Shown piece after piece: positions 1,401 through 50,225 of a DNA stretch of 64,000 nucleotides (its first letter is position 1; the number at the start of each line of letters is the position of its first letter). The notes below the pieces were generated by a model that was given only the letters and a program-made list of their open reading frames with translations, searched no databases and had not been told where the DNA came from. This DNA is from Limonium bicolor (lineage: Eukaryota > Streptophyta > Magnoliopsida > Caryophyllales > Plumbaginaceae): NCBI GenBank assembly GCA_023374045.1, contig CM041783.1, positions 93,469,298 through 93,533,297 of the forward strand. The letters are read 5' to 3'. The position numbers and the translations under genes were made by a program.

Positions 1401-2043
1401 TGTAGGTAAGAGGCCTGAAATACCCCAAACTTTAGTATGTTGTTTAAACATTAAAACATGATTTATCAAGACAAGAAAATGTCTTAGAAACATTAATAAA
1501 CAATTTAAACCATAAAGAACACAATTAAATACCTTAAGGTCAATATGGGCTAAAATGTGCTCTAAGCTTGGAATAAGCTTGGGTAAGACCTAATGAACTT
1601 ACCAAGATCTTATTTATATGTTAATGAACATATTAAATCAATTACCAAAGAAAACCAAGCTTGAAAACGAGTTAAAACACAAAATGTGCTTTAAGAAGTC
1701 TTAAAGCACATTTTTGAAAAATTGTCTTGTAAATGAGTTTTGAGTGGCTAAATGTCCATCATTACTCTTAAATATATATGTGTACTATATAATATCACAT
1801 TTGGGTGGCTATATCAATGGGAAATCAAAAATTTCACTTCTATGTGCCTTGTTTTATGAATAGTGATTTTTATAAGCTAGTTTGTAACATATGTTGTATT
1901 AAGTAATTAAATTGACAAATAAAGACTAAAATACCCTCATTGTATTATAGGGGGCCGGTTTCCTAAGTGTGGTGACTCACCACTCACTTATTAACATGTT
2001 AAATAAATAAAGATGACTAACTAGGTACTATTTACTTTAAGGC

Positions 2044-2052
2044 TTAAATATC
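2044..2052 (+). promoter_or_regulatory. Candidate TATA box of E1
   Basis: TTAAATATC is followed by a pyrimidine-rich stretch (TCTCATTCTCTCATTTCCC), the layout of a plant Pol II core promoter and leader. E2 and E6 have ATAAATATC at the same relative place. The transcription start is not shown by sequence alone. Confidence 0.4.
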
Positions 2053-3611
2053 TTCTAAAAGCAAGTTTTATCTCATTCTCTCATTTCCCTCCTCCATTTC
2101 ACACGGTTCCAACTTCTTCTTCCTCCCTTCTTGCTGTTCTCTCACGGTAATATCACCACCACCATTAAAACTCAAGCTTTGACCTCTTGTAAATCCAAGC
2201 TCACTTAACCAAATCAAAAACAAACACCACCATTCTCTTCCTTTTATCAAGCTCTTCATTTCTATCTTCTCAAAACTTCAAGAGCCCCATTTCGGTGCCA
2301 TGGAGTTCCACCATTGAAGGAGCTTGAGCTTGTATTTCTACATATTATTACTCTCCTTTGCTTCTAGGTAAGGAATCTCAAATAAAAACAACATTTCCTC
2401 CATGTTTTTGCCTTGACCGAAAATGTACATTGATGGAGATCTTTGTGTGACTTTGCTATAGCTTCATTCCTACTCTTCATGGACTAGGTGGAGTCCTCTC
2501 TTGATATATATTCAAACTCTCTTCAAAGATCAAGGTAAAACAACTACATTAATGTTTCTGAAACAATGTAAAATTAGGGTTTACAATGAGATGAAGCTTA
2601 TAGCTTGAATACTCATTATAATGTTTGTATATTGTTTAGAACTTGACAAGGAATCAAATACCTTACCGGTTTTATAAGGAAACAAGAAAGAAGTTGTTTG
2701 GAAAAGAGGTAAATATACTAACCTAATGTTGTTTTAATGCCTTAGGAGAAATGAGCTTATAATGCTTGTTAAAAACTACCTAAAGAGCAAAAGGGTGAAT
2801 GACCTAGTAACTGTTCTCAAGGAGACTAGTAAAAGAACATATGTTTTGTTGTATGTATTTGCAGGTCAAAGGCTTATATATTGTGGAAATTCAGTGTTTA
2901 TGATTTAAGCACTTTAAGGGCCTAGGAGCCATGCATTTTAAGGGCCTAAGTGCCATGCAATTTAAAGTTATGCATTATATTTTAATGTAGTGGGATTTGA
3001 GTGAAGTTTTAGGTATGAGAGTGTTCTTGGTGTTCTTAGTGTTCTTGGCTGTTTAAAGGTGAAAACAATGTGCTTTGGTGTAACAAAATGCTAGGAAAAC
3101 CTATGTCGAAATTTAGGAAATGCATAAGGGGTTCAAGATGTTTTAAAGGAATTTTTGATGAACTAGGAAGTGTTCTAGAGTGTAATAAGGACTTAGGCAT
3201 GATCTTGAGGTTTTAGTATGTACCAAAGTCATTTTGGACTTAGGTAAAGACTTAGGCAAACTTTGGTAAACAAAGGAGAAAGTGTGAACTTGAAAAAGGA
3301 TTTCAAGAAATGGCATAAGGAGTTGATGGTAGGAAATGATGCTTGAAAGATGATGTTAAAATGAAGAGAAAGTATTTTGAGATAGTAGTTATCATAGGTA
3401 TGAAACACCACTTGGAGACTAGGAGAAAACATTGTAAGTGTTAGGAATTTTGTGAAGATATAAGTAAAGGCTTAAGGAATTAGAAAATGAGTTTTATGAG
3501 TGTTTAAGGATGTCTTAAGGTGTGTTTGAAGTGCCCAAATGAGGTTAGGGTGTACTAGGATATATGGGGTGAAGTTTGAAGTTGAATGAGAAAAGGAAAA
3601 CAAAGGTCTGG

Positions 3612-3950
3612 GGCAGACCGAACTTGCGACCGAACTTGCAAGTTCGGTCGAGCCCAGTTTACCCTGCGAGAATTGGCTTCTGGAATGGACCGACCTTGGG
3701 GACCGGACTTGCAAGGTCGGTCGGGCTTGTATTTTGTGTACGGATTGAGTTACTGGAATCGACCGAACATGGGACCGGACTTGGCAAGTTCGGTCGGGCT
3801 AAATTTTCAAAGGGAAGAAACTCTCGGGAATAGACCGAACATGCGACCGAACTTACAAGGTCGGTCGGAGTAGAAAATTTTGACGGAAATGTGTTCTGGA
3901 ATCGACCGAACTTGGGTAAGTTCGGTCGGTAAGGTCGGTCGGACCAAAAC
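3612..3950 (+). repeat. LTR hairpin array, GACCGAACTT type (E1 5' LTR)
   Basis: There are five modules of about 65 bp. Each has inverted arms such as GACCGAACTTG and CAAGTTCGGTC, or the paired variant GACCGACCTTG and CAAGGTCGGTC, separated by a spacer with TTCTGGAAT. The C-to-A change in one arm is matched by G-to-T in the other. The array is followed by an A-run. An identical array is in the 3' LTR. Confidence 0.85.
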
Positions 3951-4888
3951 TTGTAAAAAAAAACAGAAAAGAATGTGACTTATGTAGTTAACCCTAGGGG
4001 GTATAATGAAGGTAACCTAGGGTAAGTTAGACATTAAAAACATGTCATACAATCATGTTAAATACTTAGTAAGTTTGAAGTTAAATAAATAATTAACCGA
4101 CGTTACTAATGTGTTTAGGATTCTCTCAAGGTGGAAACGAATCGAGGCAAGGACCAAGGTATGGTTTTCTTGCAGTCTGTTGTCTACCGGTTTACACCGG
4201 CTTGGGTGTTGTTTGCTTTTCTGTGTGTTACGACCTTATAAGATTAAGGCATGAAAAGAGTTTACAGTTGTTATATATTATGATGTTGTATTATTGTGAC
4301 TCCTTCCCTTGGTGTGTCTAACAAGACCTAAACACTTACTTGTGTGTGACTTAACAAAATGTTGTGTGATCACTAACAAGTGCTAACCGGGGGAGTGAGG
4401 AGTCCGGTCATGTTCCGGCCACGCGTGTGAGGACGAGAGTCGATGTCATATCCGGTTCGGCTCTCTTGGTGTATGTATAGGTTGTATTCCAATTTGGTTT
4501 CTACCTTCCCTTAGCTTATCCAAAGCTAGTATACTGACTCACGTCGGGCCACAGGGGCATACAAATGTTATTTCGGTGTGCTTGGGATTACTATATCCGA
4601 CACACCTTGGGTATAAGTTAACCGTTCGATATAACTGGATGGTAACGAGGTTGGTAACGAGCTTAGCATGAGATTGGCATTAATCTCTAGGCTCACTATG
4701 TATACTAACTATGGTGGAAGGTTCCTTGTGTGAACCGGTTTCATGGTGTTATGTATTGTTATGGTGCTATGCAATTTCCCTTGCTATGCTATGGTGTATA
4801 TATGTTGGATGTTTAAAATGAATGCCATGTTATCATGACAATTGGTTGCGCGTATCCCGGTAGTCGATGGGCTGCGCGTTAACCATAC

Positions 4889-4927
4889 CAGCAAAGGTTG
4901 CTGACCCCCTCGGGGGCTCCATATTTT
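4889..4927 (+). promoter_or_regulatory. Conserved double stem-loop with T-run near LTR 3' end (E1 5' LTR)
   Basis: Arms CAGCA and TGCTG enclose AAGGT. They are followed by CCCC-CTCG-GGGG, then CTCCATATTTTACTGCAGG. The arms match the E2 and E3 versions while the loops differ. The copy in the 3' LTR is at 15135-15173. Confidence 0.55.
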
Positions 4928-5321
4928 ACTGCAGGATGAGGATCGAAGAAGCGGAGTGGCTCTAGATCCTAGGTCGTTGATGTACTTTTGGTTATTTTGG
5001 TTGTTGAGCCCGGGATGCGCCTGTGCTCTCGAGGTATTACATTTTGGTACCGTTCGTTAAACAGTGGTGGATGTTTACAGTTGGTAGTTGTGATGTAAAT
5101 TAAATACTCGGTATTGTTGGCTATATATATATATATGTGGATGTTAAGATCTATGCTCGGGAGTCTGATCATCAGACCGATACACTTGTATTTATTCTGC
5201 CTAGTTAACCACGTGGGTGGTTAACGGCGTTGTAACACCAAAGCGTTAAATTATTGTTGGTTGGTTATTTCCGCTGCGATTTCAGTAGTTGGTAGGGGCG
5301 TTGTAGGGGTGTTACAAAAAG

Positions 5322-5348
5322 TGATATCAGAGCGAAGTATCGCTCTGA
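5322..5348 (+). promoter_or_regulatory. Primer binding site (initiator tRNA-Met) overlapped by a 9-bp hairpin
   Basis: TGATATCAGAGC (5322-5333) lies 5 bp after the LTR and differs by one base from the plant tRNA-iMet site TGGTATCAGAGC. Its 3' half is the left arm of a perfect hairpin: TCAGAGCGA (5327-5335), loop AGTA, TCGCTCTGA (5340-5348). The hairpin is also present in E3, E4 and E5 with changed but pairing arms; E2 keeps a damaged version. Confidence 0.9.
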
Positions 5349-5535
5349 TGACTAGAATACCGAGCTTAGGGACATACCGAGTTAGGAAACCTAACCATAG
5401 TTACCTAAGTGAACAGATTTGGGAAGGTTAACCACTAACTAAGTGTGGAATTACCTTGTTGTCGGGAAGATGCTACAATCGTTGGACCGATAAATGTGCA
5501 AGCACAGTGCTAATGAAATGTTCATATGAATTCAG

Positions 5536-6993
5536 ATGGCAGGTAGACCACGAGGTAGAGGCCGCGGGCGCGGTGTTGGAGATGCGGGTGACCAGGGCGA
5601 TGATACTACGGCACAGACCATGGCTGAGGCAGTAGCAGCCGCCGTAGCCCAGATGGTACCCCAGATGGTTGCTGCATTACAGCAAGGGCAACAGCCCGGA
5701 GTTCAGCCACCGCCACCGCCACGAGAGACCAATTGGGTCAAGGCGTTGGCTGATCTGAGACTGCCGTCGTTCAATGGGGAGACCGACCCTCGCAAGCTGG
5801 AGGCGTACATCTCCGAGCTGGAGACCGCCTACGAGACCTTGGCAGTACCTGCTGAAGCTAAGGTCCGTCTTGCCGCTTACTACTTGAAGGGTTCGGCACA
5901 GAGTTGGTGGAAGTTGGTGAGAGAGGACAGGATAGCTGATCCTGAGTTTGGTTGGAGGGAGTACATGGCTCTACTGCGAGCCAAGTATTACCCTGTACAT
6001 GTGCAGGAGGCCAAGCGCCTCGAGCTGGACAGTCTGAGGCAGGGGGATAAGATGTCGTTTGATGACTACTACACCGCATTCACCGGCCTTATCCACCTGT
6101 TACCAGACCTTGGGTACTCGAACCGAGTGTTGGTGAACCGGTTCTACAATGGTCTTAGCCACCGTCTCCGCTACGGGATGGGGCCAGCTGAGTATACTAC
6201 CTTGCAGGTAATTAGAGTACCATGTTGTGAATCAATTTATGCCATGAGTGAATGTTAATGTGAGTTGGTAAGTTGTTTTGCGGGGCATGACTGACATCCT
6301 AAAATTCAGGAGTGCTATCATGCCGCTGCTAAGGTTGAAATTACCGTCCGTCTGAGGGACGAGGAGAATGCGCACAAGCGCAAGGCCACTAACGAGGGCC
6401 AGAGTCAGCAAGGGTATGGGGGAGGAAAGAAAAAGAAACCCTACCCTCAGCCCCAGAAGAGTCAGTACCAGGGTGACAAGGGCCAAGCCCAGACCACCAC
6501 AGCTGATGAGCCACTGAAGCTCACGTATGCGTATGCGGCGAAGCCTCTACGCTCCTACCCGCCTAAGGGTAATTATCTAATCCTGTGTGATAAGTTGAAG
6601 TGTATGTTGATAAGTTGTGAGACAAGTATTGATTGTGTGATGTGATAGCAGCTAGCGCGGGTTCGGGACCGGAGCGCCACTTTTACTGTAAGTGGTGTAA
6701 CGGAGACCACCCCGGCAAAGACTGCAAGGGGAATGACGTGAAGTGTCATTACTGCCAGAAGATGGGGCACCGTGAGTTTGAGTGCTGGCAGAACCCCAAT
6801 GGCAGGAACTATAAGCCAAAGGGGCAGTGGAAGGGTAAGACTACCGCGACCACCGAAAGCCCGAAGGCGATCATCCAGCAGTCTTCTGACAAGAAGTACA
6901 CTGAATCCCAGAAAGGGAAGGGTACGGGGTCCGGCAAGGCCGCCCTGAATGTGGTGGACCGGTCTGAGGCACCAGGATCCTCTTCGAGACCAG
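5536..6993 (+). CDS. gag: E1 Gag in three exons (5536-6207, 6310-6568, 6652-6993): capsid region plus two zinc knuckles
   Basis: The ATG at 5536 follows TTCAG and opens an Arg/Gly-rich start (GRPRGRGRGRG). Exon 1 holds the retrotransposon Gag region, with a WW pair near residue 124 and a KYYP motif, the part that builds the particle. Exon 2 is short and basic (GGKKKK). Exon 3 carries two zinc knuckles, CKWCNGDHPGKDC (CX2CX3HX4C) and CHYCQKMGHREFEC (CX2CX4HX4C), which bind RNA. Exon ends are placed at GT/AG sites that keep frame: phase 0 after ACC TTG CAG, phase 1 after AAG G, phase 1 after CCA G. E2 has the same junctions in the same phases, strong evidence that they are real introns. Read unspliced, exon 1 soon stops at 6256 and exon 3 at 7002. 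Exon 3 should join either AlkB (7143) or Pol (8061). Confidence 0.85.
6208..6309 (+). other. Predicted gag intron 1 (E1)
   Basis: Donor CAG|GTAATT and acceptor AAAATTCAG|GAG span 102 bp in phase 0. The E2 counterpart is 45061-45146. Exon sequence on both sides aligns between E1 and E2; the intron does not, as expected of spliced-out sequence. Confidence 0.8.
6569..6651 (+). other. Predicted gag intron 2 (E1)
   Basis: Donor AAGG|GTAATT and acceptor GATAGCAG|CT span 83 bp in phase 1. An alternative acceptor three bases earlier (ATAG) also keeps frame. The E2 counterpart is about 45400-45499. Confidence 0.75.
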
Positions 6994-8060
6994 GTACCGC
7001 CTAAACTGTTAAATGAAAAAGTGATTGCTTACCGCATTTCATGCATGAGTGTTGTATTAGTGAGTCTAATGTACAACCACTTAAGTAATGAGTTATAGAA
7101 TAATGTGAGAGACACCTAAATTAGACAATGTGGAAAACTTAGGAACCTTCAATATCTGTTATCCAATCCCGCCCACACCAAACCCTGAAGAGACCGCCAT
7201 CAGCATCACCGAATTCCCACTGGAGCAATGTCAGGTTATCCAACCAGGTATGATACTCTTAAATGGATACCTGACACCGGAAGCACAAATCCACATCATC
7301 AGGCGTTGCAACGAACTTGGAGCAGCACCAGGAGGTTTCTACACACCCGAATACCCGAGCGGTTCGAAGATGAAGCTGAAGATGATGTGCATGGGTAAGG
7401 ACTGGAATCCTTACACCAAGTCATATCAGGATGTACGAGCTGAAGACGGAGCAACTGTACCAGGCATACCTGAGGAGTTCCTTGCGGTCGTTAACCACGC
7501 CGTGGGAATTGCTCAGCAAGTTGAATCAGGACCGATCCCGAATGTTAAAGCGGACTTGTGTATTGTGAACTTCTACCAGAAAGGTGGACGGTTAGGGTTA
7601 CACCAAGATAGGGACGAGTCACCCGAGTCTCTAAGTAAGGGAGTACCCGTGGTGTCTTGGTCCATTGGTGATACCGCAGTGTTTATGTACGGCGAGCAGA
7701 AGCGTGGTGATCTCGCAAAGAAGCTAGTGTTGAAGTCAGGTGATGTATTAATCATGGGAGGACAATCGAGGATGTTATACCACGGTATCAAGAAGATTAA
7801 CTTGAATACCGCACCATCGACAGTGGTAAATGCCACACATCTGAAACCCGGACGTTTGAATTTGACCTTCAGGCAGTTTTGAGCCTTGTGTAACCATGTA
7901 ATGTAATAAGCCAGATGTATGTTAAGGAAGCTATCTATAGTCATGTCTACAATGTAACCAACTTATGGTGTAAAGAGGGTGTTAATGAATAAAGAGTGGT
8001 TGTTTTGGAGTGTATCAAACGTGTTACTACCGTATACTTATGAGTTTGTGAATGAACTAG
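6994..8060 (+). other. Predicted alternative intron 3 (E1): one donor, acceptors at 7142 and 8060
   Basis: The donor CCAG|GTACCG at 6994 lies in phase 1. Acceptor one, AACTTAG|GA (intron 6994-7142), joins Gag in frame to AlkB. Acceptor two, GAACTAG|GC (intron 6994-8060), joins Gag in frame to protease and skips AlkB. E2 has donor 45821 and acceptors ending 45952 and 46847 at aligned places and in the same phase. Between the AlkB stop and 8060 (7883-8060) no other coding sequence is seen. Confidence 0.7.
7143..7882 (+). CDS. E1 AlkB-family Fe(II)/2-oxoglutarate dioxygenase exon
   Basis: AlkB proteins oxidatively remove methyl groups from bases of DNA or RNA. The exon encodes about 246 residues. 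Visible motifs are iron ligands LHQDRDE (HxD, CAC at 7601), distal His in YHGI (7781), and the C-terminal 2-oxoglutarate motif RLNLTFRQF (RxNxTxR, 7853-7873). SWSIGD and LKSGDVLIMGG strands lie between, as in bacterial AlkB and plant ALKBH1-like proteins. It is full length for the catalytic domain and unbroken, ending at TGA 7880. The frame has no ATG near its start but is entered in phase from the gag donor, so a Gag-AlkB protein is likely, packaged or particle-associated. E2 has the same exon in the same place. The substrate is unknown; protection of element RNA from methylation marks, as proposed for AlkB domains of some plant RNA viruses, is an inference. Confidence 0.93.
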
Positions 8061-11000
8061 GCTGTGCACTCGGAACGGGAGGTATACTGAGTGTCTGCAA
8101 TAAGGCAGAAGCCGGCAAGAGCGACACAATCCTCACCGGTACCTTTCCAGTGAATGGCGTGGATGCATCGATCTTGTTCGACTCTGGAGCCTCACATACA
8201 TTCATTTCGCTATCATTTGCGAAGAGGCTGGGGTTAGACGGTGAAGAGATGCCAGACTTCGTGGTCACTCTCCCGTCGAAAGAGTGGATCAGGTGTACCC
8301 GCTACTACCGAGATGCTGTTATACGAATCAGGGATGAGGAGTTTCCGATCGACTTGATAGAGTTCGACGGACTAGGTTTTGACGTGATTGTCGGGATGAA
8401 CTGGTTGGAGCGGTACAAGGGTAGAATCCTGTGTGCCGAGCATCGACTGCTTCTTCGGAGTCCATCTGGGGTTACTATATCATACCGCCAGAGGCCCAGG
8501 GAGCCTTCGACACAGATCATTACCGCCATGGCCATGTATCGTGAGATACGACGAGGAAATGATGTATACCTCTGCTATGTCCAGGACATAGAGAGAGACC
8601 CTGAGTTTAGCCCAGATGTGCCGGTAGTGTCGGAGTTTCCTGATGTATTTCCTAAGGAACTGCCGGGCATGCCGCCAGCACGAGAGGTTGAGTTTGAGAT
8701 TGACTTAGTTCCGGGCACCGGACCCATTGCGAAGGCACCTTATCGTATGGCTCTAGCAGAGATGACAGAGCTCAAGGAGCAGCTGAGAGACCTACTCGAC
8801 AAGGGCTTTATCCGCCCTAGTGTTTCACCATGGGGAGCGCCGGTCCTCTTCGTGAAGAAGAAGGACGGTAGCCTCCGCCTGTGTATTGATTATCGGGAGC
8901 TGAATGCTGTTACGGTGAAGAACCGTTACCCTTTACCACGCATCGACGATCTATTTGATCAGCTGAGGGGAGCATCAGTATTCTCCAAGATAGACCTACG
9001 TTCCGGATACCACCAGATTGCCATCCGTGACAGTGATATCGAAAAGACAGCATTCAGAACTAGGTATGGGCATTATGAGTTCACAGTTATGCCGTTTGGC
9101 TTATCCAATGCACCAGCAAAGTTCATGGACTTAATGAACCGTTTGTTCCAAGATCAGTTGGAAATCAGTGGTAGTCTTCATCGATGACATACTTGTGTAT
9201 TCGAAATCGAGAGGTGAGCATGAAAGCCACCTGAGAGATGTGTTGCAAACATTGAGGAAAAATCAGCTGTATGCTAAATTTTAAGTGTGAGTTCTGGTTG
9301 AACCAAGTATCCTTCCTTGGACATGTGATTTCTGAGGCCGGGATCGCTGTTGATCCGGCAAAGATAGATGCAGTGCACACCTGGCCTAGGCCGAAGACAG
9401 TTACCGATATCAGGAGCTTCCTCGGTCTGGCAGGTTACTATAGGAGGTTTGTGAAGGACTTCTCCAGTGTCTCGAAGCCGATGACTTCCTTGATGAAAAA
9501 GGATGCACCATTCGAGTGGACAGTCGACTGTGAGAGTTCTTTCACGAGTCTCAAGGATGCTCTGACATCTGCACCGGTTCTGACATTACCAGACGGTCCA
9601 GATGATTTTGAGGTCTATTGCGACGCATCAGGCAGGGGTATGGGTTGTGTGTTGATGCAACACGGGAAGGTCGTGGCTTACGCCTCCCGACAGCTGAAGA
9701 AGCATGAAGAGAACTACCCTACCCACGATTTAGAATTGGGTGCCATTGTCTTCGCATTGAAGATATGGCGACATCATTTGTATGGGGTAAGCGTGTGACA
9801 ATCTATTCCGACCATAAGAGTTTGAAATACTTGTTCACTCAGAAAGAGTTGAACATGAGGCAAGAAGGTGGGTTGAGTTCTTAAATGATTATGACATCAA
9901 TTTACAGTATAAGGAGGGTAAGGCAAATGGTGGTAGCTGACGCATTGAGTCGCCGAGCACACTCTCTCCATCGCATCGTCTCATACTTACTTGGTTGAAG
10001 AGGTGCGGAGTGCTCAGATGACGGATCAGTATATGGTGGAGATTAGACAGAAGCTTATTGATGGCACATTCGAGGGTCAGAAGTACGACTTCAGACTCCA
10101 CGATGATGACCTGATTAGGCTAATGGCGACTGTGTATACCGGAAGTAGCGCGAGCTGAAGGAGCGCATTGAGTGAATCCCATTGTTCTACTACATCGATT
10201 CACCCGGAGCTTCAAAGATGTTATAAAGGATATGAAAAGATATTTTGGTGGCTGGAATGAAAAAGGATGTGAATGCTATGTGTTGAGGTGTCTCACTTGT
10301 CAGAGGTCAAGTTTGAGCACCGACGGCCTGGTGGTATGGTGCAGCCAATGCCAGTGCCCGAGTGGAAGTTCCATGAATATCTATGGACTTCGTGGTAGGG
10401 CTTCCGCCTACAAGGGGAGGTCTGAATATGATTTGGGTTGTGTAGACCGCTGACCAAGGTGGCTCGATTCATACCGATGAAGGACACCTGGAAAGTGGCT
10501 AAGCTTGCAGAGCTCTTCGACAGAGAGATTGTAAGACATCATGGGGTTCCGAAAAACGATTGTATCCGACACCGAGATACCAGATTCTTATCGAGGTATT
10601 GGAGATCCACACGAGAGGCACTGGGTACCGAAACTGAAATTGAGAACAGCGTTTCACCCACAGACAGATGGTCGAGTGAGCGCACCATCCATCCGACTTG
10701 GGATGTTACGTGCTGTGCACTTGACTTTCAGACCAGCTGGATTGATAAGTACATCTGCGAGTTTAGTTACAACAACAGTTACCATGCTTCGATCAAGATG
10801 TCTCCCTTCCAGGCATTGTACGGTAGACCATGCCGCACGCCTTTATGCTGGGATGAGTCGAGTGAGACGGTCATTATAGGACCAGAGTATCTGGAAGTTC
10901 AGGCAGAAGTTCGCCAGATCCGGGCTAACATGAGAGCAGCTCAGGATAGACAGAAGTCGTACGCAGATGTGCGCAGACGTGACCTGGAGTTCGCCGTGGG

Positions 11001-11418
11001 CGATCAGGTATTTTTGAGAGTATCCCCCATGAAGGGAGTATTTCGTTTTGGCCAGAAAGGCAAGTTGAGCCCAAAATATGTGGGGCCTTATGTTGTGACG
11101 GAGCGGATCGGCCCGGTAGCTTATAGACTTGATTTACCCGCCGAGCTGGGCAAGGTACATGATGTATTTCATGTGTCCCAGTTGAAGAAGTATATGTCTC
11201 ATCCGTCTCATGTGCTTCAGCCTGAAAGGCTAACCTTAGAGCCGACCATGCGATCAGTGGAGACTCCCGTACAGATTCTGGATACTAAGACTCGAGACAC
11301 TCGCCATAAGTCCGTGAAACTGGTGAAGGTCCTCTGGTCTAAGCAGGACGTTGAGGAGGCCACTTGGGAGCTGGAAGATAAGATGAAGGCGAAGTACCCG
11401 TCATTGTTTGCTTCTTAG
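8061..11418 (+). CDS. pol: E1 Pol: protease, reverse transcriptase, RNase H, integrase, chromodomain (with frameshifts)
   Basis: The order is typical of Ty3/gypsy chromoviruses. Protease has [10 protein letters not shown] (catalytic Asp near 8180). Reverse transcriptase covers roughly 8640-9400, with its FIDD box near 9177 just past a frame change. RNase H (YCDASG near 9620) follows, then integrase with RDTRF and SERTI parts of the DDE triad. The GPY/F-type region (KYVGPYVV) is near 11080, and a group II-like chromodomain ([10 protein letters not shown] near 11350) ends at the stop 11416-11418. The reading frame changes near 9161, 9283 and 9797 and repeatedly between about 9850 and 10690, damaging the RNase H end and the integrase zinc finger. 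Most are one- or two-base length differences relative to E2, so sequencing error is possible. There is no good start codon; entry is predicted by splicing from Gag at 8061. Confidence 0.88.
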
Positions 11419-11432
11419 TGTTTATATGTATA

Positions 11433-11466
11433 GGGTACGGGGCGTACCCCTTTTAAGGGGGTAGAG
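11433..11466 (+). promoter_or_regulatory. Hairpin plus second polypurine tract just after pol (E1)
   Basis: Arms GGGTACG (11433) and CGTACCC (11443) enclose GGG, followed directly by TTTTAAGGGGGTAGAG. This nearly repeats the true tract before the 3' LTR. E2, E3, E4 and E5 all have it, and the last three use a different but pairing hairpin. It may act as an extra plus-strand primer or an RNA signal. 11467-11690 holds nothing else I recognise. Confidence 0.6.
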
Positions 11467-11690
11467 CCGTTTCGGTTATGGTTGTGTACGACATGTATAT
11501 GTATACATTGTCTATGTTATGCTACAGACCGTTGTGTCTGAATGGTATTATGTGGGTTGGACCTTGAGTCTGTTGTGGTGTAAGTATGATGGTAGTGTTG
11601 GTAATGATGTTTTGGAAGTATTGTGTTATAAGATTTTCCCCGTGTTCTAATATTAAGATATGTGGGAAGTGTGAACTTTGGGGACAAAGT

Positions 11691-11709
11691 TCTTTTAAGG
11701 GGGGTAGAT
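11691..11709 (+). promoter_or_regulatory. 3' polypurine tract of E1
   Basis: TTTTAAGGGGGGTAGAT directly precedes the 3' LTR start at 11710. This is the plus-strand priming site expected of an LTR retrotransposon. Confidence 0.9.
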
Positions 11710-13873
11710 TGAAATACCCCAAACCTTAGTATGTTGTTTAAACATTAAAACATGATTTATCAAGACAAGAAAATGTCTTAGAAACATTAATAAACAATTT
11801 AAACCATAAAGAACACAATTAAATACCTTAAGGTCAATATGGGCTAAAATGTGCTCTAAGCTTGGAATAAGCTTGGGTAAGACCTAATGAACTTACCAAG
11901 ACCTTATTTATATGTTAATGAACATATTAAATCAATTACCAAAGAAAACCAAGCTTGAAAACAGTTAAAACACAAAATGTGCTTTAAGAAGTCTTAAAGC
12001 ACATTTTTGAAAAATTGTCTTGTAAATGAGTTTTGAGTGGCTAAATGTCCATCATTACTCTTAAATATATATGTGTACTATATAATATCACATTTGGGTG
12101 GCTATATCAATGGGAAATCAAAAATTTCACTTCTATGTGCCTTGTTTTATGAATAGTGATTTTTATAAGCTAGTTTGTAACATATGTTGTATTAAGTAAT
12201 TAAATTGACAAAAAAGACTAAAATACCCTCATTGTATTATAGGGGGCCGGTTTCCTAAGTGTGGTGACTCACCACTCACTTATTAACATGTTAAATAAAT
12301 AAAGATGACTAACTAGGTACTATTTACTTTAAGGCTTAAATATCTTCTAAAAGCAAGTTTTATCTCATTCTCTCATTTCCCTCCTCCATTTCACACGGTT
12401 CCAACTTCTTCTTCCTCCCTTCTTGCTGTTCTCTCACGGTAATATCACCACCACCATTAAAACTCAAGCTTTGACCTCTTGTAAATCCAAGCTCACTTAA
12501 CCAAATCAAAAACAAACACCACCATTCTCTTCCTCTTATCAAGCTCTTTATTTCTATCTTCTCAAAACTTCAAGAGCCCCATTTCGGTGCCATGGAGTTC
12601 CACCATTGAAGGAGCTTGAGCTTGTATTTCTACATATTATACTCTCCTTTGCTTCTAGGTAAGGAATCTTAAATAAAAACTACATTTCCTTCATGTTTTT
12701 GCCTTGACCGAAAATGTACATTGATGGAGCTCTTTGTGTGACTTTGCTCTAGCTTCATTCCAACTCTTCATGGACTAGGTGGAGTCCTCTCTTGATATAT
12801 TCAAACTCTCTTCAAAGATCAAGGTAAAAACTACATTATGTTTTTGAAACAATGTAAAATTAGGGTTTACAATGAGATGAAGCTTAAAGCTTGAATACTC
12901 ATTATAATGTTTGTATATTGTTTAGAACTTGACAAGGAATCAAATACCTTACCGGTTTTATAAGGAAACAAGAAAGAAGTTGTTTGGAAAAGAGGTAAAT
13001 ATACTAACCTAATGTTGTTTTAATGCCTTAGGAGAAATGAGCTTATAATGCTTGTTAAAACTACCTAAAGAGCAAATGGTGAATGACCTAGTAATGTTCT
13101 CAAGGAGACTAGTAAAAGAACATATGTTTTGTTGTATGTATTTGCAGGTCAAAGGCTATATATTGTGGAAATTCAGTGTTTATGATTTAAGCACTTTAAG
13201 GGCCTAGAAGCCATGCATTTTAAGGGCCTAAGTGTCATGCAATTTAAAGTTATGCATTATATTTTAATGTAGTGGGATTTGAGTGTTCTTGGTGTTCTTA
13301 GTGTTCTTGGGTGTTTAAAGGTGAAAACAATGTGCTTTGGTGTAACAAAATGCTAGGAAAACCTATGTCGAAATTTAGGAAATGCATAAGGGGTTCAAGA
13401 TGTTTTAAAGGAACTTTTGATGAACTAGGAAGTGTTCTAGAGTGTAATAAGGACTTAGGCATGATCTTGAGGTTTTAGTATGTACCAAAGTCATTTTGGA
13501 CTTAGGTAAAGACTTAGGCAAACTTTGGTAAAATAAGGAGAAAGTGTGAACTTGAAAAAGGATTTCAAGAAATGACATAAGGAGTTGATGGTAGGAAATG
13601 ATGCTTGAAAGATGATGTTAAAATGAAGAGAAAGTATTTTGAGATAGTAGTTATCATAGGTATGAAACACCACTTGGAGACTAGGAGAAAACATTGTAAG
13701 TGTTAGGAATTTTGTGAAGATATAAGTAAAGGCTTAAGGAATTAGAAAATGAGTTTTATGAGTGTTTAAGGATGTCTTAAGGTGTGTTTGAAGTGCCCAA
13801 ATGAGGTTAGGGTGTACTAGGATATATGGGGTGAAGTTTGGAGTTGAATGAGAAAAGGAAAACAAAGGTCTGG

Positions 13874-14213
13874 GGCAGACCGAACTTGCGACCGAACTTG
13901 CAAGTTCGGTCGAGCCCAGTTTACCCTGCGAGAATTGGCTTCTGGAATGGACCGACCTTGGGGACCGGACTTGCAAGGTCGGTCGGGCTTGTATTTTGTG
14001 TACGGATTGAGTTACTGGAATCGACCGAACATGGGACCGGACTTGGCAAGTTCGGTCGGGCTAAATTTTCAAAGGGAAGAAACTCTCGGGAATAGACCGA
14101 ACATGCGACCGAACTTACAAGGTCGGTCGGAGTAGAAAATTTTGACGGAAATGTGTTCTGGAATCGACCGAACTTGGGTAAGTTCGGTCGGTAAGGTCGG
14201 TCGGACCAAAACT
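13874..14213 (+). repeat. LTR hairpin array, GACCGAACTT type (E1 3' LTR)
   Basis: This is the copy of the array at 3612-3950, with the same five modules and no difference I could find in the arms. Confidence 0.85.
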
Positions 14214-15134
14214 TGTAAAAAAAAACAGAAAAGAATGTGACTTATGTAGTTAACCCTAGGGGGTATAATGAAGGTAACCTAGGGTAAGTTAGACATTAAA
14301 AACATGTCATACAATCATGTTAAATACTTAGTAAGTTTGAAGTTAAATAAATAATTAACCGACGTTACTAATGTGTTTAGGATTCTCTAGGTGGAAAAAT
14401 CGAGGCAAGGACCAAGGTATGGTTTTCTTGCAGTCTGTTGTCTACCGGTTTACACCGGCTTGGGTGTTGTTTGCTTTTCTGTGTGTTACGACCTTATAAG
14501 ATTAAGGCATGAAAAGAGTTTACAGTTGTTATATATTATGATGTTGTATTATTGTGACTCCTTCCCTTGGTGTGTCTAACAAGACCTAAACACTTACTTG
14601 TGTGTGACTTAACAAAATGTGTGTGATCACTAACAAGTGCTAACCGGGGGGAGTGAGGAGTCCGGTCATGTTCCGGCCAGCGTGTGAGGACGGGAGTCGA
14701 TGTCATATCCGGTTCGGCTCTTGGTGTATGTATAGGTTGTATTCCAATTTGGTTTCTACCTTCCCTTAGCTTATCCAAAGCTAGTAATGACTCACGTCGG
14801 GCCACAGGGGCATACAAATGTTATTTCGGTGTGCTTGGGATTACTATATCCGACACACCTTGGGTATAAGTTAACCGTTCGATATAACTGGACGGTAACG
14901 AGGTTGGTAACGAGCTTAGCATGAGATTGGCATTAATCTCTAGGCTCACTATGTATACTAACTATGGTGGAAGGTTCCTTGTGTGAACCGGTTTCATGGT
15001 GGTATTGTTATGGTGCTATGCAATTTCCCTTGCTATGCTATGGTGTATTATGTTGGATGTTTAAAATGAATGCCATGTTATCATGACAATTGGTTGCGCG
15101 TATCCGGTAGCGATGGGCTGCGCGTTAACCATAC

Positions 15135-15173
15135 CAGCAAAGGTTGCTGACCCCCTCGGGGGCTCCATATTTT
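15135..15173 (+). promoter_or_regulatory. Conserved double stem-loop with T-run near LTR 3' end (E1 3' LTR)
   Basis: Arms CAGCA/TGCTG enclose AAGGT, then CCCC-CTCG-GGGG, followed by ATATTTTACTGCAGG. This is the 3' LTR copy of 4889-4927. In the 3' LTR it would lie near where the genomic RNA should end. Confidence 0.5.
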
Positions 15174-15558
15174 ACTGCAGGATGAGGATCGAAGAAGCGG
15201 AGTGGCTCTAGATCCTAGGTCGTTGATGTACTTTTGGTTATTTTGGTTGTTGAGCCGGGATGCGCCTGTGCTCCCGAGGCATTACATTTGGTACCGTTCG
15301 TTAAACAGTGGTGGATGTTTACAGTTGGTAGTTGTGATGTAAATTAAATACTCGGTATTGTTGGCTATATATATATATGTGGATGTTAGGATCTATGCTC
15401 GGGAGTCTGATCATCAGACCGATACACTTGTATTTATTATGCCTAGTTAACCACGTGGGTGGTTAACGGCGTTGTAACACCAAAGCGTTAAATTATTGTT
15501 GGTTGGTTATTTCCGCTGCGATTTCAGTAGTTGGTAGGGGCGTTGTAGGGGTGTTACA

Positions 15559-15886
15559 AGGCCCATGAAGTTGCACCACGAGAGTAGGAGCGGTTAGACT
15601 TAAGATGGGTTGTTTGTTTTGAGTACGGGTTGCGCTTGTGCTCTCGGCTGTTTATATTGGAACTGATGTAAGTTTGTAAATATGACTTGGATACTTAAAC
15701 TCGGGGTTGGTGGTATTTGGATGGGTGTTTTGGTCGGTGTTTATTTGGATAAGTGTTGTAATTGATAAGGCCGGTATATTCTAGCGATCAGACCGTGGAA
15801 GGGCAGGTTATTGTATTTCCGCTAAGACGAATTCGATAAGGTTCAGTTTTGCGATAACCACGATTGGCTTTGGATGGGGTGTTACA
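15559..15886 (+). repeat. E2 5' LTR, second segment
   Basis: The segment resumes with AGGCCCATGAAG and matches 54355-54688 of the E2 3' LTR, ending TGGGGTGTTACA. The join across E1 restores the uninterrupted LTR when one AGGCC copy is dropped. Confidence 0.93.
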
Positions 15887-15891
15887 AAAAG

Positions 15892-16331: not shown

Positions 16332-16758
16332 TGTAACACCCCTACCATTAATACATGTTTACCGTCCAATCTCCTTACAGTCAGATACAGCAGCGGATAT
16401 TTACTTATGTACAATGGGTGACAATGCCGCTAACACCCACGTGGCTAACAAGGCTACTACTGCTTACAGCATCGGTCTGATGGACCAGAATCCCGAGTAC
16501 TACACTTCCACAACACATACTCCACTCATCAAACGAACACTACAAGGTTCCATTCAATACTTTACTCCTTCGTAAACCATACAATACAAAATTCATAACC
16601 GAGTCTACTAGGTTTCCAATACAATTACAATGCTTCCAAGTTCGTACACCACTCTCTAAGAGACCTTAATACACCGTTCCTCACAACTACTTGCTTTTAA
16701 TTACAGGGGTGTGCCTCCGGTCTCTTCCTTGACCTATTCGCTTCGGGTACCTGCACAC

Positions 16759-16795
16759 TAAAAAATGTCCCCCGAAGGGGTCAGCTTTCGCGAGA
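16759..16795 (-). promoter_or_regulatory. Conserved stem-loop with T-run (E4 3' LTR)
   Basis: On the minus strand: CCCC-TTCG-GGGG, then ACATTTTTTAGTGTGCAGG. The GC arms, T-run and CAGG are kept; the upstream CAGCA/TGCTG hairpin has diverged. The 5' LTR copy is at 26778-26815. Confidence 0.5.
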
Positions 16796-17954: not shown

Positions 17955-18430
17955 ACCCGACCGAACTTGCGACCGACCTTGCAAGTTCGGTCCAAGTCAG
18001 TAGGCTACATCGGGTGAAAATTCCAGGGCCGACCGACCTTGCAAGTTCGGTCCCAAGGTCGGTCCATTCCAGTGAGTTACTTAACGGAAAATTTTAGCTC
18101 AACCGACCTTGCAAGTCCGGTCGCAAGGTCGGTCCATTCCAGTAGCTTACCCGACGGAAATTTTTCTGGTCGACCGACCTTGCAAGTCCGGTCGCAAGGT
18201 CGGTCCATTCCAGTAAGTTTCAAGGCGGAAAAATTTTGCGTCGACCGACCTTGCAAGTCCGGTCGCAAGGTCGGTCCATTCCAGTAGGTTACAGACGGGA
18301 GAATTTCTCTGGTCGGACCGAACTTGCAAGTCCGGTCGCAAGTTCGGTCCATTCCAGAAGTTTTCCCGTCTTTGTAAATCTGGGCTCGACCGACCTTGCA
18401 AGTTCGGTCCCAAGGTCGGTCTGGCCCAGT
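17955..18430 (-). repeat. LTR hairpin array, GACCGACCTT type, seven modules (E4 3' LTR)
   Basis: Modules of about 70 bp hold arms GACCGACCTTGC and GCAAGGTCGGTC around a 10-base loop with TCCGGTC, followed by CATTCCAG. In the module at 18316-18349 the arms are GACCGAACTTGC and GCAAGTTCGGTC: both arms changed together. ACCGAC, the core of plant DRE/CRT sites, recurs in every module. Confidence 0.87.
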
Positions 18431-29548: not shown

Positions 29549-29558
29549 GTTATAAAAT
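29549..29558 (-). promoter_or_regulatory. Candidate TATA box of E4
   Basis: GTTATAAAATA on the plus strand reads TATTTTATAAC on the sense strand. It is followed by a pyrimidine-rich leader (the reverse of the GA-rich stretch 29440-29515). Confidence 0.45.
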
Positions 29559-44418: not shown

Positions 44419-45820
44419 ATGGTAGGACGTCCTAGAGGAGGCCGAGGTCGTGGCCAGGGCGATGATGCCTCAGGGATACCAGGAGGGCAGACGATCGCCG
44501 AGATCGTGGCTGCTGCATTAGGGCACATGAGCTATCAGCCTGGTGTGGGTGCACCACCTCCACCGCCATAACCCAGGGAACCAAATTGGGTGAAGAGTCT
44601 TGCAGACCTTCGACCCGCACACTTTAAGGGGGAGACTGATCCCGCCAAGCTTGAGGCGTACATCTCCGAGCTGAAGACCGCCTTTGAGACCCTTGATGTC
44701 CCTGCTGGGATCAAGGTGCGTCTGGCTGCTTTCTATCTGAAGGGGGCGGCAGGCGATTGGTGGAAGCTGGTGAGGGCCGAGCATGTGGCCAATCCAGAGT
44801 TCGGCTGGGAGCAGTACACCGCCTTGCTACGAGCAAAGTACTACCCCGCCCATGTTCAGACGAAGAAGCGCTTGCAGTTGGATGCGCTTAAGCAGACCGA
44901 CAAGATGACGGTGGATGAGTATTACTCAGAGTTCACCGCCTTGCTCCGTCTTCTGCCAGGTCTTGGATATTCAGACCAGATCCTGGTGGACCGCTTCTAT
45001 GGCGGGCTTAGCCATCGACTCCGCTACGGCATGGGGCCGACGAGTTACACTACCTTGCAGGTAATAAGAATGATTGAGATTTGGGTAAGTAAATGAGTAA
45101 GATTTAGATTATGAGAAATAAGAGTGACTAATACTGTGGAAAGCAGGAGTGCTATCATGCCGCTGCTAAGGTTGAGATAACCATCTAGCTGAGGGACGAG
45201 GAGAATGCTAAGAGGAAGAGTGCTGGTAAGGGCACGGAGAGCCAAGGGCAAGGTGGGTACAAGAAACAGAAGTACCAGCCTCAGGCCCAGAAGAGTTAGA
45301 ATCAAAAGGGGAAGGAGGAAAAGGAGAAGGCTCCGGAAGAGCCATTGAAGTTGACATATGCTTTCGCAGCTACACCCCTACGCTCTAGGGCGCCAAAGGG
45401 TAAGGGATTGGTATTGAATGAGTTATGATACAATGAGTAACCGTTTGAGATATGAGTATTGATATTGTGAATGATGAGGATCTGAGACTGAGAAGGGAGC
45501 CGGTGGTGGCTACCAGCGACGCTACATCTGTAGGTGGTGTCACAGGGACCACCCCGGGCTCGATTGCAAGGGGAATAAGGTGGAGTGCAACTATTGTGGG
45601 GTATACGGACACCAAGCATATGAGTGCTTCCGGAACCTTGCTAGCAGAGCCTATAGGCCCGATACCAGGGGCAAGGGCAAGACCGATCAGGGAGCTGGAT
45701 CTGACGGTCAGAGGAAGGTGCAGCAAGCTGCAGACAAGAACCCACGGGTGACCCAGAAGTCGGGACCCACACTACACTTGGTGGACCGGGACGATGAGCC
45801 TGAACCCTCATCGAGGCTAG
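44419..45820 (+). pseudogene. gag: E2 gag, three exons (44419-45060, 45147-45399, 45500-45820), nonsense-mutated
   Basis: The ATG at 44419 follows TTCAG as in E1 and opens an Arg/Gly-rich start. The capsid region and both zinc knuckles (CRWCHRDHPGLDC, CNYCGVYGHQAYEC) align with E1 Gag. Predicted junctions repeat those of E1 in phase: CAG|GTAATA, AAGG|GTAAGG with acceptor GGGAG|CC, and CTAG|GTACCG. In-frame stops are at 44569 (TAA), 45186 (TAG) and 45297 (TAG), so no full Gag can be made. The leader 44237-44418, behind E3, holds nothing else recognisable. Confidence 0.85.
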
Positions 45821-45952
45821 GTACCGCTATAACCACTTAGTAATATAATTGCCTGCTTACCGCATTATCATGCATGTTTGGTGAATAATTGAGTTAAGTA
45901 AGAATGAGATGAGATTAGAACTTAAGTAAGATATAACCTACCACCACTTTAG

Positions 45953-46692
45953 GAAGCTTCAACATCTGCTATCCAATACCATTTACACCTAACCCGGAGC
46001 ACACCGACATCGAAACCATAGACTTTCCAACCGAACAATGTCAGGTTATCCACCCAGGTATGATCTTATTAAGGGGATACCTGACACCTGAAGCACAAAT
46101 AGCCATCATCAGAAGATGCAATCAACTAGGAATGGGACCGGGAGGTTTTTACACACCGGAGTACCCAGGGGGAGCAAGGATGAAATTAAAAATGATGAGC
46201 TTAGGCAAGGATTGGAATCCGTATGCCAAGAACTACTAAACCACGAGGATGCAAGATGGAGTCTCACCACCGGGAATACCCGAAGAGTTCCATCCAGTTA
46301 TTACACAAGTCGTGGAAATCGCTCAGCAATTGGAAGCTGAACCGATTCCAGACATTCAAGCAGACATTTGCATTGTGAACTTCTACGAGAAGGATGGGCG
46401 ACTTGGACTACACCAGGATAAGGACGAGACAACGGAGTCTCTCGAAAGAGGGATACCCGTAGTGTCTTGGTCCATTGGGGATGATGCAGAGTTTTTATAC
46501 GGCGAGCAGAAGCGTGCGGACCGTGCAAATAAGTTGGTACTTAAGTTTGGAGATGTATTAATTATGGGAGGAGAGTCAAGGATGTTATACCATGGGATTA
46601 AGAGAATCAAGCAGAATACAGTACCGTTAGCAGTAATTAATGCGACGCATATGAGACATGGGAGATTAAACCTAACCTTTAGACAATATTAG
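45953..46692 (+). pseudogene. E2 AlkB-family dioxygenase exon, one nonsense codon
   Basis: The acceptor ACTTTAG|GA joins in phase to the gag donor at 45821. The domain aligns along its full length with the E1 AlkB exon and keeps LHQDKDE (46408), YHGI (46588) and RLNLTFRQY (46663). Most differences from E1 look synonymous or conservative. One stop (TAA, 46237-46239) lies before the catalytic part; the frame then runs open to the TAG at 46690. Presence in two diverged elements with all catalytic motifs argues for long selection before E2 decayed. Confidence 0.9.
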
Positions 46693-46847
46693 TCATGTAA
46701 TGTTAGAATGAGATGAGGAATGAGATGTAAGATTGAAGCACATGTTGTAAACAGGATGGTTATGAATAAAGTAACAGTGTTGTTCATATAAATTGTTACG
46801 ACTCTTGTTATACCATCAATACTCATGAAGCTTGTGAACATAATTAG

Positions 46848-49800
46848 GTTAAGGACTCAGTACGGAAGGTGTGCTAAGCATACTTACAGAGGCACAGGCC
46901 GACGCCATCGGTACTATCCTCACCGGCACCTTTCCGATTAATGGGATTGAGGCATCAGTTCTCTTCGACTCAGGGGCCTCACACACCTTTGTCTCGGCAT
47001 CTTTCGCGAGCAGGTTGGGGCTAGACGCTGATGAGCTACCCGACTTCACGGTTACGCTCCCGTCTAAGGAGAAGGTTCATTGCACTCGTTACTACCGAGG
47101 AGCCATTGTCAGAATTAAGGGAGAAGACTTTCCAGTCAGTTTTATTGAGTTCAGTGAGCTAGGATTTGATGTTATCTTCGGGATGAACTGGTTGGAGCGG
47201 CACAAGGGACGTATCCTTTGCGCCGAGCATAGATTGCTGCTCAGGAGTCCGTCTGGGGTAACAATATCATACCGCCAGAGGCCCAGAGAGCCTTCGACTA
47301 AGATCATCACCGCCATGGCAATGTATAAGGAATTGAGGAGAAAAGAAGAAGTGTACCTCTGCTATGTACAGGACATAGAGAGAGACCCTGAGTTCGACCC
47401 CGACTTACCGGTAGTGTCGGAGTTCCCCGACCTATCTCCATGGGAACTGCCCGGCATGCCACCCACTCGGGAGGTAGAGTTCACCATCGAGCTGCTACCT
47501 GGTACCGGACCAATAGCCAAGGCACCATACCGCATGGCTCCGGCAGAAATGAATGAATTGAAAGAACAATTGAAAGATTTGTTAGATAAGGGATTTATAA
47601 GACCAAGTGCGTCACCATGGGGAGCGCCAGTCCTCTTCGTGAAGAAGAAGGATGGTAGTCTCCGCCTCTGCATCGACTACAGAGAGCTGAATGCAGTGAC
47701 AGTGAAGAATAAGTACCCACTACCCCGCATTGACGATCTGTTCGATTAGTTGAAGGGAGCATCTGTGTTCTCCAAGATTGATCTCAGATCGGGGTATCAT
47801 CAGATAGCCATTAAGGAGGGAGACATTGAGAAGATGGCATTCCGGACACGATACAGCCACTATGAATTTACAGTGATGCCGTTCGGTTTGTCGAACGCAC
47901 CGGTGAAGTTTATGGATCTGATGAACCGCTTGTTCCGGGAGCAGCTGGACAAGTCGGTTGTGGTGTTTATTGATGACATTTTGATATACTCGAAATCTAA
48001 GGCTGAACATGAGGAACATCTGAGGAGGGTATTAGAGATATTAAGGGAGAACCAGCTATATGCTAAGTTCTCCAAGTGTGAGTTTTGGCTTGACCAGGTC
48101 TCTTTCCTAGGTCATGTCATCTCGGACGCTGGGATCTCAGTGGATCCAGCAAAGATTGATGCCGTACGTACTTGGCCAAGACCGAAGACTGTTACCGACA
48201 TCCGGAGCTTTCTGGTCTGCAGGTTACTACAGGAGGTTTGTTAGGGATTTCAGCAAGGTCGCGAAACCGATGACCAGTCTGATGAAGAAAGATGCACCGT
48301 TCTTGTGGACAGCTGACTGTGAGAAATCATTTCAGAGTTTGAAGGACTCACTGACCACTGCACCGGTTCTGACCATTCCAGACGGTATAGAGGGCTTTGA
48401 GGCTTATTGTGATGCATCCGGCAGCGGGCTGGGTTGCGTGCTCATGTAACATGGCAAGGTGGTGGCATATGCCTCACGCCAATTGAAGAAACATGAGGAG
48501 AACTACCCCACACATGATTTAGAGCTGGGAGCTATAGTTTTCGCTTTGAAGATATGGCGCCACTACTTATACGGGGTTAGTGTGACGATCTACACCGATC
48601 ATAAGAGTTTGAGATACATATTCACTCAGAAGGAGTTGAATCTTCGACAGAGGAGATGGTTAGAGTTTCTGAAAGACTATGACATTGACCTCCAGTACAA
48701 AGAGGGAAAGGCCAATGTTGTAGCAGACGCCCTGAGCCATCGAGCACACTCACTCCATTCGCTAGTTTCTTTCTCCAGCTTGGTTGATGAGGTGCGAGAG
48801 GCTCAGAGGACAGATGAGTATATGAGAGAGGTCAGACAGAAGCTAACAGATGGTACCTTTGAGAGTCAGAAATATGACTTCAGACTTCACGATGATGATC
48901 TGATCAGACTTAAGGGCCGGTTATGCATACCACGGGGCAACACGGATCTGAAAGACCGTATACTTAGAGAATCACACTGTTCTTCAGTTTCCATCCATCC
49001 AGGAGCCTCTAAGATGTATAAAGACATGAAGAGATACTTCTGGTGACCGGGGATGAAGACAGATGTTACCGAGTTCGTCTTGAGGTGTCTCACATGCCAG
49101 AAGGTAAAATTCGAGCACCGACGACCGGGCGGAATGGTACAATCGATGCCAGTTCCGGAATGGAAGTTCCATGATGTCTCCATGGACTTTGTAGTTGGAC
49201 TTCCACCTGCTAGGGGAGGTCTCAACATGATATGGGTGGTGGTGGATCGCCTTACCAAAGTAGCCCGATTCATACCGATGAAGGATACTTGGAAGGTGAC
49301 CAAATTAGCTGAGTTGTTTGAGAAAGAAATAATGAGACATCACGGGATACCAAAGACCATAGTGTCAAACAGAGATACCAGATTCCTTTCGAGGTACTGG
49401 AGAGCTACTAGAGAAGCGTTGGGTACAGAACTGAAGTTGAGTACCGCGTTCCATCCTCAGACAGATGGTCAGACTGAGCGTACCATTCAGACACTCGGGG
49501 ACATGCTGAGGGCATGTGCCTTAGACTTCCAGGGCAGTTGGATTGACAGACTACATGTGATCGAGTTTTCATACAACAACAGCTATCACGCTTCGATCAA
49601 GATGGCACCTTATCAAGTGTTGTACGGTAGACCATGTCGTACACCGCTCTGCTGGGATGAATCGAGTGAGACGGTCATTATAGGACCAGAGTACTTAGAG
49701 CAAGTTAAGGCTGAAGTTCAGCAAATCAGGGAGAACATGAAAGCTGCTCAAGATAGACAGAAGTCGTATGCTGATGTTCGACAACGGGACCTGGAGTTCG

Positions 49801-50225
49801 CAGTGGGCGACCAGGTATTTCTACGAGTTTCACCGATGAAGGGTGTATCCAGGTTTGGGCAGAAGGGCAAATTAAGCCTGAAGTTTGTTGGTCCTTATGA
49901 GATTATGGAGCGGGTGGGCCCGGTTGCTTACAGGATGAATTTACCTGCTGAACTGGGTAAAGTGCATGATGTTTTTCATGTTTCACAACTAAAGAAATAC
50001 ATGCACCACCCCTCCCATGTGTTAGAACCTGAGAGGTTGACTTTAGAACCAAATATGAGATCAGTGGAGCTTCCTCAGAGAATCTTGGACAGTAAGACTA
50101 GGGACACTCGCCACAAGTTAGTGCGACTGGTGAAGGTTCTCTGGTCTAACCAGGATGTCGAAGAGGCCACGTGGGAATTAGAGGATAAGATGAGGGTGAA
50201 GTACCCTTCTTTGTTTACTGACTAG
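46848..50225 (+). pseudogene. pol: E2 Pol: protease, RT, RNase H, integrase, chromodomain, with stops
   Basis: Domains in order are protease ([10 protein letters not shown] near 46965), RT with [10 protein letters not shown] near 47968, RNase H (YCDASG near 48406; YTDHKSL near 48590), integrase zinc finger (CLTC near 49090), catalytic core with MDF, RDTRF and TERTIQ, GPY/F-type region and a group II-like chromodomain ([10 protein letters not shown]). The predicted entry meets a TAA at once (46850). Further stops are at 47747 (TAG), 48447 (TAA) and 49044 (TGA), and two one-base losses near 48210 shift the frame briefly. Integrase-chromodomain is open from 49053 to the end. 46693-46847 and 50275-50520 hold no gene that I see. 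Confidence 0.9.

Follow-up and report, generated by a model that had tools for sequence, protein, structure and literature searches.

A high-copy Ty3/gypsy lineage of Limonium bicolor carries an ALKBH1-type AlkB exon between gag and pol, likely joined to Gag by alternative splicing

Structure of the element

The window, the whole stretch of 64,000 nucleotides of Limonium bicolor that was analysed (assembly GCA_023374045.1, contig CM041783.1), contains an LTR retrotransposon of the Ty3/gypsy type, about 14.1 kb in length and spanning positions 1411-15563. An exon encoding an AlkB dioxygenase domain lies between its gag and pol regions, and a second, decayed copy of the same lineage occurs further downstream. 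The features of the locus are as follows.

1411..1415 and 15559-15563, no strand: target-site duplication AGGCC, read off the flanks
1416..5316, plus strand: 5' LTR, TGAAATACC...TGTTACA, by BLAST against the 3' LTR
5322..5333, plus strand: probable primer-binding site, which we take to be a near-complement of the initiator Met tRNA
5536..6207, plus strand: gag exon 1, capsid (Retrotrans_gag PF03732, E 8.9e-18)
6208..6309, plus strand: gag intron 1, GT-AG, absent to the base in L032, L036 and L039
6310..6568, plus strand: gag exon 2, by comparison of copies
6569..6651, plus strand: gag intron 2, GT-AG, absent to the base in L059, L061, L063 and L068
6652..6993, plus strand: gag exon 3, CCHC zinc knuckles, ending in a phase-1 donor, by comparison of copies
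6994..7142, plus strand: intron 3, 5' of AlkB, acceptor AG in 42 of 42 copies
7143..7882, plus strand: AlkB exon with its own stop, TGA at 7880-7882, by Pfam, PDB match and comparison of copies
7883..8060, plus strand: segment from the AlkB stop to the pol acceptor, whose AG is present in 20 of 20 family-A copies
8061..11418, plus strand: pol, with protease (RVP_2), RT, RNase H, integrase and a weak chromodomain match, by ORF and Pfam
11710..15558, plus strand: 3' LTR, by BLAST against the 5' LTR
44420..50225, plus strand: second, decayed copy of the lineage, with gag from 44420, AlkB exon at 45953-46692 and pol to 50225
52960-54689, plus strand: paralogous empty site, a continuous match to 1-1415 plus 15559-15887 across the insertion point

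The two LTRs are 97.9% identical, with 27 mismatches over 3903 columns of the BLAST alignment. Substitutions between them amount to about 0.7%, so the insertion is young, about 0.3 million years old at 1.3e-8 substitutions per site and year, a rate that we assume for LTR dating. The pol reading frame of this copy is interrupted, and the AlkB exon of the second window copy, 71% identical to the first in AlkB, contains one internal stop. The zinc knuckles of gag exon 3 gave no Pfam match and were recognised by eye. The chromodomain matches (PF00385, E 6.7e-4 and 1.8e-4) score 20 and 21.8 bits, under the cut-off of 25.1. In the second window copy, 88 residues separate RNase H from the zinc-binding start of the integrase, and Pfam found no second RNase H family.

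The AlkB domain

The reading frame at 7109-7882 on the plus strand has no stop before its end, and Pfam assigns the AlkB exon to a single family, PF13532 (2OG-FeII_Oxy_2, E 2.5e-47), with 162 bits against a cut-off of 31.2 and a match over profile positions 1-194 of 194, which is the full domain. The original prediction, made from the letters alone, of a complete and open AlkB domain between Gag zinc knuckles and protease is therefore borne out, and the outcome that a profile search would return no AlkB match is excluded. The metal- and cosubstrate-binding motifs that it named are also present, the HxD motif being H154/D156 (codons 7601 and 7607), the distal histidine H214 (7781), and the two arginines of RxNxTxR R238/R244 (codons 7853 and 7871). 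Across 42 copies, H154 and D156 are kept in all 42, H214 in 41, R238 in 40 and R244 in 41, whereas, averaged over sites, 9.6 of the 42 depart from the window copy. The stop after LNLTFRQF/Y is the identical codon in 39 of 42 copies and displaced by one or two codons in three.

The nearest solved sequence is rice ALKBH1 (E 2.5e-69), followed by E. coli AlkB (E 3.6e-23), and all 21 PDB sequences matched are AlkB or ALKBH1, with no ALKBH5 and no FTO among them. As judged from these sequences, the domain belongs to the ALKBH1/E. coli AlkB class and not to ALKBH5/9/10. The predicted structure (mean pLDDT 91) aligns to OsALKBH1 with a TM-score of 0.84 (E 1.4e-27) and to E. coli AlkB with about 0.7, and places the domain in the double-stranded beta-helix fold. 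No in-frame ATG occurs in the exon ahead of residue 37. Its first base, 7143, directly follows a TAG acceptor that is kept in 42 of 42 copies, a count made up of family A, family B (both defined below) and both window copies; an alternative acceptor, TTAG directly before 7125, was discarded since comparison of copies places the acceptor at the TAG before 7143.

Copy number, linkage and selection

Two queries, the AlkB domain and the protein P0002, were run against the same assembly (2.92 Gb, 2686 contigs). The AlkB-domain query gave 53,499 first-look candidates, 150 of which were scored, all at 93-100% identity, and the P0002 query gave 52,095, of which the 141 scored show 68-74% identity to P0002 and represent a second family. 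Twenty loci were picked from each list and fetched; as they were selected by AlkB score, the linkage counts start from AlkB-bearing copies. Among these 40 loci, the zinc-knuckle match is present in 40, the gag capsid in 39 (some partial) and protease-RT in 38. One locus, L034, has other DNA upstream, and L045 and L053 lack a protease-RT match, other DNA beginning 3' of AlkB. A string spanning the donor of gag exon 3 matches 7,581 genomic places with at most two mismatches, and its reversed control matches none. The Gag-AlkB-RT linkage that had been proposed as something to look for is thus present within the same genome, and the linkage in 40 loci together with the 7,581 copies of the donor string rules out a chance insertion confined to this one copy.

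Families A and B are about 57% identical, and AlkB is kept in both. P0001, P0002 and P0004, which come from other public contigs, fall inside the same AlkB clade, so this AlkB type extends beyond the present assembly. In pairs with dS of at least 0.8, dN/dS is 0.05-0.13 for AlkB and 0.06-0.14 for gag; for protease-RT it is 0.04-0.07 in pairs with dS of at least 0.73. Shallow pairs give 0.11-0.27 for AlkB, and cross-family pairs are saturated. AlkB is under purifying selection, with dN/dS near 0.1, matching the strength of that on gag between subfamilies. The domain is thus built into a plant Ty3/gypsy element, as predicted, and belongs to a high-copy lineage that keeps it under selection. Intact AlkB frames are found in 37 of 42 copies, a share biased upward because the copies were found by AlkB score. 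In two further loci, L063 and L065, similarity to the window copy is about 78-84% in the gag exons and about 96% in the pol exon, a contrast that suggests recombination between subfamilies.

Introns and the two splice joins

The donor after the zinc knuckles and the acceptors at 7142/7143 (AlkB) and 8060/8061 (pol) are all of phase 1, so that one donor is able to join either AlkB or pol in frame. Each of the 20 family-A copies compared keeps the GT of this donor and the AG of both acceptors. If AlkB is skipped, the segment at 7883-8060 becomes part of a long intron, 6994-8060. The intron 1 donor is kept in 17 of 20 family-A copies, the others being two exact losses and one copy with other DNA at that place. 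Exact losses, of intron 1 in L032, L036 and L039 and of a linker intron in L069, indicate real splicing. Family B (L039-L058) has introns that family A lacks, located in the gag linker and within pol immediately 5' of the protease (between VIT and GTFPV); intron content thus varies inside one retrotransposon lineage.

Joins of gag exon 3 directly to pol, with AlkB skipped, occur at 13 genomic places (reversed control 0). Ten of the 13 were inspected, and exon 3 abuts the pol exon exactly in all ten. Four of these (L059, L061, L063 and L068) also lack introns 1 and 2, like a spliced mRNA, five retain both introns, and L066 retains intron 1 and has about 81 unaligned bases at intron 2. Copies with this join interleave with AlkB-bearing ones, the exon-3 tree requiring four state changes, three of them forced by well-supported branches, and the pol tree six, of which one is forced; the Gag-Pol join arose more than once.

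Joins of gag exon 3 to AlkB were found at 13 places by a 28-base string, nine of them exact (reversed control 0). One such locus, L070, was inspected: the join is exact, intron 2 is also absent, and the AlkB sequence stops after 52 nt. Unrelated DNA follows these 52 nt at 1562-3026 of L070, which may therefore be a truncated or non-autonomous derivative. All 13 loci have one common base unlike the window copy, so that a single event is possible. An earlier, shorter pattern had given ten matches, of which two were inspected, L070 with a true join and L071 unspliced; the 28-base string recovers nine of these ten and omits L071. The latter was rejected as a Gag-AlkB join, as its whole intron is present and ends in sequence resembling the exon end. 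At 319-450 of L071, the final ten bases of intron 3 equal the final ten of gag exon 3, TCTAGACCAG, and mimic a splice join.

Genomic copies give good support to splicing to pol and less to splicing to AlkB. What these genomic fossils record is the copying of spliced RNAs, and translation is not implied. No Gag-AlkB fusion, with a gag family in the Pfam annotation, occurs among the 120 matches listed of 420 database proteins.

Origin of the AlkB domain

A tree of 44 rows unites the element AlkBs in a single clade (94/88), which joins the plant ALKBH1C/D genes against bacteria with support of 100/100. The clade is placed outside the land-plant genes; a topology that holds it with seed plants gives p-AU 0.53 and is not rejected, and one that holds it with monocots comes close to rejection (p-AU 0.057). 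The comparison with plant ALKBH genes that had been proposed alongside the original prediction thus ties the domain to the plant genes, and nesting within those of seed plants is neither shown nor rejected. The topology is consistent with a single capture of a plant ALKBH1-type gene. Rice OsALKBH1 (PDB 5xeg, 5xoi) and plant ALKBH1C/D are nearest to the element domain in sequence and fold, and have an N-terminal FDIC-like motif and a C-terminal LNLTFRQ end in common with it, but these are host genes outside retrotransposons with long N-terminal regions, whereas the element domains form their own neighbouring clade. Among the 98 scored places, which were filled by long uninterrupted element-like matches, no ALKBH1 gene of the host itself could be discerned. 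A 200-residue matK piece of the host reaches at most about 69% identity over its length to its best matches, the leading named ones being cacti (68%) and Silene (64%), against 64% for Populus and 55% for an orchid; this points to a probable eudicot rather than an orchid.

Proposed mechanism

The explanation that best accommodates these data, to which we assign a probability of roughly 0.6, is a high-copy Ty3/gypsy lineage with an ALKBH1-type exon flanked by gag and pol, likely expressed as Gag-AlkB by alternative splicing and demethylating the element's own RNA or cDNA. The one donor 3' of the zinc knuckles would be joined either to the AlkB acceptor, yielding a Gag-AlkB protein that terminates at the AlkB stop, or to the pol acceptor, yielding Gag-Pol with AlkB skipped. 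Unspliced RNA would be the usual template, since most examined copies retain their introns. Gag would then carry AlkB into the particle. The original prediction, likewise, was that the element may erase methylation on its own RNA or cDNA, or on host RNA, and may thereby escape silencing.

Given the ALKBH1/AlkB class, the likeliest use of the enzyme is to rid the template of blocking or marking methyl groups, either ahead of reverse transcription or while it proceeds. Single-stranded m1A and m3C are substrates for repair by E. coli AlkB, and both modifications block reverse transcription, so that clearing the template is the simplest benefit; by class, m1A and m3C would be the first substrates, with 6mA or m6A possible. 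Erasure of host-written m6A or 6mA would be an alternative benefit, though m6A is not the default substrate for a domain outside the m6A-eraser class ALKBH5/9/10. More specifically, and more tentatively, we envisage an eraser inside the particle: the donor picks between Gag-AlkB and Gag-Pol, and an ALKBH1-class demethylase positioned beside the genomic RNA would clear marks that block reverse transcription (m1A, m3C) or are written by the host, before or during cDNA synthesis. LTR retrotransposons would then have captured AlkB a second time and independently, from another enzyme class, and for the first time as a Gag fusion.

Alternative explanations

As a free protein, the domain might instead act on nucleic acids of the host, such as m6A in mRNA or 6mA and R-loops at silenced chromatin, its link to Gag being incidental or cleaved. 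Known relatives give this reading some substance, as an orchid element protein encoded by a separate ORF is reported to demethylate m6A in vitro (PMC9289625) and rice ALKBH1 to remove 6mA from R-loops and affect chromatin (PMC10469495), and the element's own protease could conceivably release the domain. However, the lack of an in-frame ATG before residue 37, the conserved in-frame acceptor after gag and a class other than ALKBH5/9/10 leave it an unlikely reading, if one worth keeping in view. Another possibility is that the exon serves mainly as a stop-bearing switch that sets the ratio of Gag to Gag-Pol, comparable to the short gag of EVADE, with enzyme activity secondary. Inclusion of AlkB does terminate the frame and skipping yields Gag-Pol, both joins are found in the genome, and EVADE and BARE1 are described as splicing to a short gag (PMC12786077), but a bare stop needs neither 246 codons at dN/dS near 0.1 nor intact iron and 2OG ligands; we regard a switch in place of an enzyme as improbable, the two roles being compatible with each other.

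It is very improbable that the element is the published orchid AlkB retrotransposon family or a near member of it. That family, Gypsy_Pa_2799 of Phalaenopsis (Alvarado-Marchena et al. 2022, PMC9289625), is described as a Ty3/gypsy element with a paALKBH5-like ORF2, and shares with the Limonium element the Pfam family and the same idea of AlkB within a plant Ty3/gypsy element, amplified in one genome with its catalytic residues kept. According to that report (PMC9289625), however, the orchid element is 25.5 kb long with 6.4-kb LTRs, is of the Ogre/Tat type with dual RNase H, and encodes an AlkB of the ALKBH5/9/10 class in a separate ORF2, whereas the Limonium element is 14.1 kb long with 3.9-kb LTRs, has a single RNase H with only a weak match to a chromodomain, and carries its AlkB, of the ALKBH1/AlkB class as judged from PDB matches in which rice ALKBH1 is best, as an alternative exon after gag with an in-frame acceptor. 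Two RNase H domains are given as unique to Tat, and chromodomains as marking chromoviruses (Neumann 2019, PMC6317226). Equally improbable is a captured host exon riding as a functionless passenger. Retrotransposons commonly pick up host sequence, but purifying selection equal to that on gag between subfamilies, retention in two families about 57% identical and conservation of the catalytic residues already contradict this reading.

Comparison with known systems and significance

Plant RNA viruses that encode an AlkB have it in the replicase. They resemble the element in being mobile or viral genomes with an AlkB of their own, whose proposed role is to preserve their RNA. The families concerned are Alphaflexi-, Betaflexi- and Closteroviridae, as named in PMC9289625. 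No viral relative of the element AlkB was found in one scan of viral_contigs, which is sensitive to close relatives only. Ogre and EVADE are reported to have introns and alternative splicing, and short gag is made through splicing in EVADE and BARE1 (PMC12786077). In Ogre/EVADE as in the Limonium element, introns are present and splice choice sets which polyprotein is made; however, Ogre/EVADE, as described there, choose no enzyme exon, whereas the Limonium element has several gag introns and chooses AlkB or Pol (PMC12786077). The rice enzyme is reported to act on 6mA in single-stranded DNA as well as in R-loops (PMC10469495).

The statement accompanying the original prediction that no retrotransposon lineage is defined by AlkB was too strong, given the m6A-demethylating AlkB of the Phalaenopsis Ty3/gypsy element reported in 2022; as that report describes a working AlkB in LTR retrotransposons, the general idea is already known (PMC9289625). 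Among the literature titles and abstracts listed, which include no preprints and few subscription papers, only PMC9289625 reports AlkB/ALKBH in LTR retrotransposons, and within the same scope no report of a multi-intron chromovirus was found among those dealing with introns of plant LTR elements, chromovirus-type or other. What is new here is how the domain is built in, with introns in gag and one donor that can make two in-frame joins; the element also differs from the orchid one in AlkB class, in lineage features and size, and in the placement of AlkB as an alternative exon after gag. The element is likely an independent capture of another AlkB class than that of the orchid, probably delivered as a Gag fusion. 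Were the orchid family the only case, it might be no more than a curiosity. A further capture, from another class and in another kind of gypsy element, under selection of gag strength and in thousands of copies, suggests that nucleic-acid methylation is a real barrier and that retrotransposons evolve means of removing it. From the splice-choice design, the enzyme is predicted to sit in the particle, and the exact intron-less genomic copies mean that spliced retrotransposon RNAs were themselves reverse-transcribed and inserted.

Neighbouring sequences in the window

Between the two copies of the lineage, the window contains two adjacent LTR-like pairs, at 16332-30152 and 30152-44233, with arms about 96-98% identical. 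The first pairs 16332-20663 with 26339-30152 and the second 30152-34373 with 40055-44233, about 5.7 kb being enclosed in each. They contain a single ORF of at least 150 aa, at 41318-41791 within an LTR-like arm, and may represent non-autonomous, minus-strand elements, the strand being read from GC skew. An imperfect tandem repeat with units of about 70 bp lies within the LTR-like segments at 18027-18421 and 28062-28457.
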